Position numbers and translations under genes: made by a program. This document shows positions 25,345 through 26,490 of a DNA stretch of 64,000 nucleotides, piece by piece. Below the pieces are notes generated by a model that was not told the DNA's origin, ran no database searches, and saw nothing but the letters and a program-made list of their open reading frames with translations. Each line of letters starts with the position of its first letter. The stretch's first letter is position 1. Origin of the DNA: Candidatus Bathyarchaeia archaeon. GTDB lineage: Archaea > Thermoproteota > Bathyarchaeia > Bathyarchaeales > DTEX01. Location of the stretch: contig JAVZNR010000003.1 in assembly GCA_038882715.1 (NCBI GenBank), forward strand, positions 62,001 through 126,000, read 5' to 3'.

Positions 25345-25418
25345 AAGTGTTAACAGAAGCGCTGATAAGGGGAAGAGTCATTGGCATCATGATGATATAG
25401 GACTTAAACCCAGAAAGG

Positions 25419-25512
25419 TGGTGGACCGGGCGGGATTCGAACCCGCGACCTCCGCCGTTCTCGGCTAGATTTTCATGCGAGGGCGGCATTCGTACCACTA
25501 AACTACCGGCCC
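25419..25512 (-). tRNA. tRNA-Ala(CGC) with an 18-nt intron
   Basis: The transcript starts GGGCCGG and ends CCGGTCC-A followed by encoded CCA (25421-25419). The acceptor has the alanine identity pair G3:U70. Anticodon CGC is at 25479-25477. The anticodon stem CCGCC/GGCGG is separated by 25 bases, 7 of loop plus an 18-nt intron (25475-25458) after position 37. A bulge-helix-bulge is visible: central helix CTCG/CGAG, bulges CA^T and AA^C, each cut after its second base, which fixes the intron ends. Confidence 0.95.
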
Positions 25513-26121: not shown

Positions 26122-26160
26122 GAGCAAATCGCATCCTTTTTCGCCGCACGGAGACGAAAA

Positions 26161-26169
26161 ACATATATT
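26161..26169 (+). promoter_or_regulatory. TATA box of the tRNA-Tyr gene
   Basis: ACATATATT lies 28-36 bases before the first base of the tRNA, the usual distance for an archaeal TATA box; the spacer is T-rich. Confidence 0.5.
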
Positions 26170-26196
26170 TCTTTTCTGTGTATTTTTGTTTTTGGT

Positions 26197-26405
26197 CGGG
26201 CGGTAGCTCAGCCTGGTAGAGCTTCCGAACCAGCCTGACATATGACCGGAAGTAGCGGGCTGGTGGAGAAGCTGTAGGCGCTACCTGCATGGTAGTCGCC
26301 GTTCAGCCTACCGGGCGTACAGAAACCGGAGTGTCGCAGGAGGGCCTAAGCAACATGAGACCTAAGCCTTAGGCTCGGCGAATTCAAATCCTGCCCGCCC
26401 GACCA
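26197..26405 (+). tRNA. tRNA-Tyr(GTA) interrupted by three introns
   Basis: Acceptor strands CGGGCGG (26197-26203) and CCGCCCG (26395-26401) give C1:G72, the archaeal tRNA-Tyr hallmark, followed by A73 and encoded CCA. Anticodon GTA is at 26274-26276. Introns: 26228-26270 (43 nt, position 30/31; central helix CTTC/GGAG, bulges CG^A and AA^G, 7-bp intron stem ACCAGCC/GGCTGGT); 26278-26324 (47 nt, 37/38; central helix CTGT/ACAG, bulges AG^G and AA^A); 26341-26382 (42 nt, 53/54; 9-bp intron stem 42-50/68-76, bulges GG^A and AA^T, relaxed central helix). Removal leaves 77 nt with full stems and the T loop TTCAAAT. Confidence 0.95.
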
Positions 26406-26490
26406 CCAATAATTTTCAGAAAAATTTGTAAAGATCTCGCCTAAAAATGCTTGTGCATAGAGCGTCTTGATGCTTTAACCCCTATTTTTT

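Follow-up and report, generated by a model that had tools for sequence, protein, structure and literature searches.

Background

The closest described systems each resemble, in part, the locus reported here. Thermoproteales possess multi-intron tRNA genes, for example some with three introns each (PMC4390854), and three is also the maximum given for an archaeal tRNA gene in reviews and in the tRNAscan-SE 2.0 paper (PMC8450103, PMC4033280, PMC4390854). According to a 2010 study, as cited in PMC4033280, similar introns at unrelated places imply that these introns are mobile. The tRNA-Thr gene of Caldiarchaeum subterraneum has one or two introns, and displays recent intron gain and loss in a natural population together with a partial tRNA copy nearby (PMC3293823). 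Pairing of an intron with its own exons is known from the box C/D guide intron of archaeal pre-tRNA-Trp (PMC11408192). Finally, archaeal H/ACA sRNAs follow rules that call for 7-9 bp in the lower stem and for a U plus N left unpaired (PMC4652768, PMC7991803), with 14-16 nt between the closing pair of the upper stem and the ACA (PMC4652768).

Here we describe a tRNA-Tyr(GUA) gene of a Candidatus Bathyarchaeia archaeon, located in a window (the whole stretch of DNA that was analysed) of 64,000 nucleotides. As in the Thermoproteales, several short bulge-helix-bulge (BHB) introns occupy canonical and noncanonical sites, and the endonuclease appears to be of the (alpha-beta)2 type. In contrast to the Thermoproteales, this is a different class and a different tRNA, its relatives reach four introns, and intron 2 pairs with the D-loop. 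The original prediction, a tRNA-Tyr gene of Thermoproteota with three introns, holds up in both observation and interpretation: it is supported by the sequence and by comparison with 69 orthologues. What is new beyond that reading, which held none of it, are the four-intron relatives, the gain, loss and apparent transfer of introns 1, 3, and 4, and the conserved helix between intron 2 and the D-loop.

Structure of the tRNA-Tyr gene

The gene occupies positions 26197-26405 of the window on the plus strand, as do all of its parts described below. It is arranged as exon 1 (31 nt), intron 1 (43 nt), exon 2 (7 nt), intron 2 (47 nt), exon 3 (16 nt), intron 3 (42 nt), and exon 4 (23 nt). Re-reading of the sequence confirmed these coordinates, the intron lengths, and the predicted sites at 30/31, 37/38, and 53/54. 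Exon 1 (26197-26227) covers tRNA positions 1-30 and includes the D-loop segment GCCTGGTAG (26211-26219, approximately positions 15-22), the partner of intron 2; this exon is near-invariant among the 69 orthologues, which were themselves found with exon 1 as the query. Exon 2 (26271-26277) is a micro-exon, GCTGTAG, that spans positions 31-37 with the anticodon. Exon 3 (26325-26340) covers positions 38-53, and exon 4 (26383-26405) covers positions 54-76 with an encoded CCA; in this last exon, TTCAAA precedes the site at which relatives have their 59/60 intron. A second CCA follows the encoded one (ACCACCA, 26402-26408), as it does in several relatives (L012, L013, L015) and not in all. Upstream, at approximately 27-40 nt from the gene, lies the BRE/TATA-like box AAAAACATATATTT (26157-26170), probably its promoter element; a comparable A/T-rich box is found upstream of the orthologue in L158.

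The predicted 77-nt product, with C1:G72 and anticodon GTA, was also borne out: the spliced 77-mer gives a cloverleaf fold and is called as tRNA-Tyr(gta) by ARAGORN. The unspliced gene was found neither by ARAGORN nor by Rfam RF00005, and an essential tRNA gene of Bathyarchaeia genomes is in this way missed by standard tRNA finders.

All three junctions display the anticipated pattern of a 3-nt bulge with its predicted cut after the second base (marked here by a slash). Intron 1 (26228-26270) has the central helix CTTC:GGAG with bulges CG/A and AA/G, while intron 3 (26341-26382) has CGCA:GGCG with bulges GG/A and AA/T. In both introns a 9-bp run, the inner helix h', lies directly inside the bulge. 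This length had been given correctly for intron 3, and for intron 1 it replaces the 7 bp of the original prediction. The central helix of intron 3 is 3 bp plus an A51.G mismatch rather than 4 bp. A BHB had been claimed at every junction, which holds for introns 1 and 3. Intron 2 (26278-26324) has bulges AG/G and AA/A and a 4-bp central helix, CTGT:ACAG in the DNA and CUGU:ACAG in the transcript; because the inner helix h' is absent, its motif is relaxed rather than a full BHB.

When the introns were shuffled, the joint motif pattern of intron 1 was reached at a rate of 5e-6 and that of intron 3 in 0/200,000 cases; for intron 2, the central helix alone gave P=0.036. The strong argument that these are introns is comparative. 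Among the Bathyarchaeia orthologues, the central helix keeps its register in 61/61 genes for intron 1, in 68/69 for intron 2, in 23/23 for intron 3 (with one A.G mismatch in 16 and all four pairs in 7), and in 26/26 for the additional intron 4 of relatives (with one mismatch in 6). Moreover, intron removal yields a 73-nt tRNA body of near-constant sequence in all 69 distinct orthologues.

tRNA genes and splicing enzymes of the host

The host genome (G000) comprises 1.64 Mb in 22 contigs and is 95% complete. An intron-free tRNA-Tyr(GTA) gene elsewhere would speak against the three-intron reading, and none was found in this genome: tRNA-Tyr(GTA) is absent among its 33 RF00005 matches, and BLAST of the gene gave a full-strength match at the 26197-26405 locus only. 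Within the 95% of the genome that is covered, this is the only tRNA-Tyr(GUA) gene found.

Two ARAGORN calls of Tyr(ata), L041 and L062, were rejected as artefacts of unremoved introns. After intron removal L041 is Ile(gat). By eye, L062 is Arg(TCG) with two introns at 29/30 and 37/38, and L063/L064 are an Arg(TCT) with introns near 8/9 and 37/38 and an Asn(GTT) with introns near 8/9 and 31/32. Noncanonical tRNA introns seem to be common in the host genome. The window also holds a tRNA-Ala(CGC) gene (25419-25512, minus strand) with an 18-nt anticodon-loop intron, which ARAGORN without introns miscalls as tRNA-Ser(cga) at 25388-25476.

The original prediction expected a heteromeric splicing endonuclease of broad specificity, and the gene content of the host agrees with this. 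Two PF01974 genes encode separate alpha (catalytic) and beta (structural) subunits. The alpha subunit is closest to EndA of A. pernix (3p1z, 2e-44) and has the EHAP histidine, and the KPK of its specificity loop aligns with KPR, in keeping with the Lys-Pro-(Lys/Arg) rule. The K-P-K loop motif of broad-specificity endonucleases has been described (PMC12397907). The beta subunit lacks the catalytic EHAP histidine. These genes suggest an enzyme of the (alpha-beta)2 type, which would assemble as a heterotetramer. An RtcB ligase gene is present as well.

Intron patterns of the orthologues

Searching with the 31-nt first exon returned 68 stretches, nearly all from Candidatus Bathyarchaeota. Together with the family genomes that carry the gene, these gave 69 distinct complete genes; three more genes were incomplete and were left out. 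The genomes compared are mostly MAGs. Coding the sites 30/31, 37/38, 53/54, and 59/60 in this order as 1 (intron present) or 0, the patterns were 1100 in 35 genes, 1111 in 19, 0100 in six, 1101 in five, and 1110 and 0111 in two each. Pattern 1110 is shared by the window gene and G011 and by no other of the 69. Intron 2 is kept in 69/69 orthologues, and intron 1 is absent from eight. By eye, two genes from another family of the class (L160, L161) also carry four introns, whose sites differ from those above and include the variable region. At the level of the phylum, the exon search pattern was too strict outside the order.

The four introns present in 19 of the 69 Bathyarchaeia orthologues are one above the published maximum that we found. 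Our literature search, with most subscription papers outside its scope, found no report of archaeal tRNA genes with four introns and no survey of Bathyarchaeota tRNA introns; such genes are to be taken as not found in the literature rather than as never described. With them, the highest intron number known for a tRNA gene would rise to four.

Conservation of intron 2 and its pairing with the D-loop

Intron 2 has a characteristic layout, consisting of CAGC, a 9-mer, two bases, and ACA. In the host, the 9-mer CTACCGGGC (26308-26316), hereafter the anti-D element, is the complement of the D-loop segment at 26211-26219. All nine bases pair with the exon D-loop in 65 of the 69 genes. The preceding CAGC (26304-26307) is the complement of exon GCTG (positions 31-34), a match seen as complementarity, with the exon GCTG invariant. 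The ACA (26319-26321) stands at a fixed 2 nt past the anti-D element; between the ACA and the 3' splice site lie anywhere from 3 to 18 nt. An upper hairpin (26277-26300) takes in exon G37 and has a covarying stem.

The CAGC-9-NN-ACA spacing is rigid in 64/69 genes and in 22 further genes. Outside the class, four families of the phylum (f15, f18, f20, f47) share this layout in the 37/38 intron of tRNA-Tyr, 15 of 18 such loci having been retrieved, and seven additional genes within the class share it as well. All of these come from a motif search, so that what counts as independent evidence is that they lie in tRNA-Tyr and that the element fits their own D-loop. The anti-D element is also retained in the eight genes without intron 1.

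Two exon positions display compensatory changes. At Y17, C faces an intron G in 16/16 genes and T faces A (51) or G (2), while at Y20, C faces G in 15/15 genes and T faces A (47) or G (7). Both positions change at least four times on the EF-1alpha tree. The Watson-Crick pairs total 577, against 533 +/- 4.4 (maximum 547) over 2000 random re-pairings of exons and introns, a control that ignores relatedness. RNAalifold picked the D-loop:intron-2 helix unprompted (-46.8, versus -41.3 with the D and anticodon stems forced); its covariance term, whose sign was ambiguous, was left out of the evidence. Intron 2 is ancient and constrained, and the covariation supports its pairing with the D-loop of its own tRNA. 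We are highly confident that the window gene, its introns, and the D-loop:intron-2 helix are real as described. The likeness to the guide intron of pre-tRNA-Trp lies in the pairing with own exons; here, in contrast, the partner is the D-loop, the pairing is not known to lead to a modification, and window intron 2 contains neither the C box RUGAUGA nor the D box CUGA.

Gain, loss, and apparent exchange of introns

Intron changes were counted on an EF-1alpha tree of 55 rows, built as a quick IQ-TREE run with 19 weak forks. EF-2 was dropped as a marker because many genomes carry two paralogues. The two EF-2 genes, found in many Bathyarchaeia genomes, are divergent, and in several cases they are adjacent on opposite strands. 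The minimum number of changes on the EF-1alpha tree was seven for intron 1, zero for intron 2, and nine each for introns 3 and 4. Members of the clade that contains the host's family mostly have introns 3 and 4, which elsewhere occur in scattered genomes. Within the host's genus, intron 4 is missing from the window genome and from G011, intron 3 from two genomes, and both introns from three. With one to four introns in this single gene across many genomes, gain, loss, and transfer can be traced directly.

An identical 23-nt intron 4 (59/60) occurs in seven genes whose introns 1 and 2 differ. L068, from the host's genus, and its sister L108 match at about 90% in the flanks, at 37/39 positions in intron 1, and at 41/47 in intron 2. 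The intron 4 of L068 matches that of L108 at 12/23 positions and those of distant lineages at 23/23; intron 3 is absent in L108. Searched with zero mismatches in 30 genomes, the intron-4 sequence was found in tRNA-Tyr genes only, plus an incomplete tRNA-Tyr copy in G396. The identity of this intron in otherwise diverged genes suggests transfer by recombination, most simply inside the tRNA-Tyr gene itself; that such a very short and constrained intron arose by convergence is a weaker alternative. This differs from the mobility case of the 2010 study, as far as that is reported in PMC4033280, in that an identical intron is shared by the same gene across lineages. Introns 1, 3, and 4 are dispensable, having been gained, lost, and apparently exchanged between lineages.

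The G396 copy lacks the first ~10 bases and has all four introns; 7.7 kb separate it from the intact gene, and both have the same orientation (L279 G396:C9:12518; L277). The copy recalls the partial tRNA copy near the C. subterraneum tRNA-Thr gene, which itself has at most two introns. The intervening 7.7-kb stretch was considered as an integrated element, which is unsupported: the part read holds oxidoreductase and transporter ORFs, with no integrase recognised by eye.

Possible roles of the intron 2 helix

Eukaryotes depend on their tRNA-Tyr intron for Psi35. For archaea, the D-loop:intron helix turns the reason for retaining the tRNA-Tyr intron into a testable question. Judging from the enzymes present and their homologues, an (alpha-beta)2 endonuclease would act on the BHBs and the relaxed BHB alike, cutting behind the second base of the bulge, with RtcB joining the exons afterwards. 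In the precursor, the D-loop:anti-D helix, followed by GCUG:CAGC and the G37 hairpin, would form a rod-like fold that holds the D-arm. Such a fold would compete with the anticodon stem and the 37/38 motif while being compatible with the intron-1 motif; it could in this way ensure that intron 1 is spliced before intron 2, and tether the 7-nt anticodon exon. Exon 2 has only seven bases, so cutting both of its neighbours before ligation would lose the anticodon, a loss that would be avoided if the helix hid the intron-2 motif until intron 1 had been joined.

By nearest-neighbour energies, taken as a guide only, the intron-1 motif wins in 61/61 genes over the alternative of an anticodon stem with the 37/38 helix; in 51 of these genes it also accommodates the anti-D helix at no energy cost. 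Energy models are poor on BHBs and pseudoknots, and all folds served as guides. Unconstrained minimum free energy folds rarely show the intron-1 BHB (the window gene prefers a shifted 6-bp helix), and energies were for this reason used only to compare forced states. Our preferred reading, which we hold tentatively and at less than even confidence, is that splicing order and the tether of the anticodon exon may explain the conservation of the anti-D element. Splicing intron 1 first cannot be the whole purpose, since the element is kept in the eight genes without that intron.

The same helix might instead take the structural place of the inner helix that the 37/38 motif lacks, and be required by the endonuclease rather than for splicing order or modification; we consider this possible and somewhat unlikely. 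The lack of h' in window intron 2 and the persistence of the anti-D helix where intron 1 is absent are consistent with it; however, in nested folds this helix cannot coexist with the anticodon stem or with the central helix of the 37/38 motif, and genes without a spacer after the ACA have little room for both helices. If all the introns were neutral or selfish, the D-loop complementarity would be what any tolerated intron needs for folding, and the frequent changes of introns 1, 3, and 4 on the tree agree with this. Yet intron 2 is unchanged on that tree, and its anti-D element is conserved at fixed spacing across families of the phylum, leaving this explanation improbable. Although standard tRNA finders miss the gene, it is hardly credible that the locus is decayed or misassembled and holds no working tRNA gene, given near-invariant exons in 69 genes from many assemblies, the compensatory changes, the promoter-like box, and its standing as the only tRNA-Tyr gene found.

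Psi35 is usually made by the enzyme TruD/aPus7. Intron 2 could be a cis-acting H/ACA-like guide for this modification, a role that we judge improbable. In this scheme the D-loop:anti-D helix (9 bp) would act as the lower stem, GCUG:CAGC as the 3' guide duplex, and the G37 hairpin as the upper stem, with the ACA following and U35-A36 as the unpaired target U plus N. The layout and its CAGC-9-NN-ACA spacing are rigid, and the ACA stays fixed while the 3' splice site shifts. The lower stem, formed with the exon D-loop, has 9 bp in 65/69 genes, within the 7-9 bp range of H/ACA sRNAs, and U35-A36 is unpaired in most local folds. No TruD match was found in two f18 genomes and one f64 genome, and both f18 genomes carry the element. 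Against this role, the distance from upper stem to ACA is mostly 18 nt (a 3-nt spacer plus CAGC-9-NN) rather than 14-16 nt, no K-turn or K-loop was seen by eye in the upper-stem hairpins, and TruD/aPus7 occurs in 20/21 genomes of the family and in 28/32 others. A further difference from archaeal H/ACA sRNAs is that guide and target would be in cis. We give a low probability to a broader proposal, in which a Thermoproteota tRNA-Tyr intron kept across classes would refold the precursor, open the D-arm, and form an H/ACA-like U35 pocket ending in ACA, directing Psi35 and/or ordered splicing in cis, with Bathyarchaeia stacking up to four introns on that scaffold. The idea that the anti-D element acts as a guide in trans was also weighed, and nothing tested supports it. 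As a separate observation, the tRNA-Tyr genes of f18 (L295, L296) apparently contain additional D-arm insertions of a different kind.
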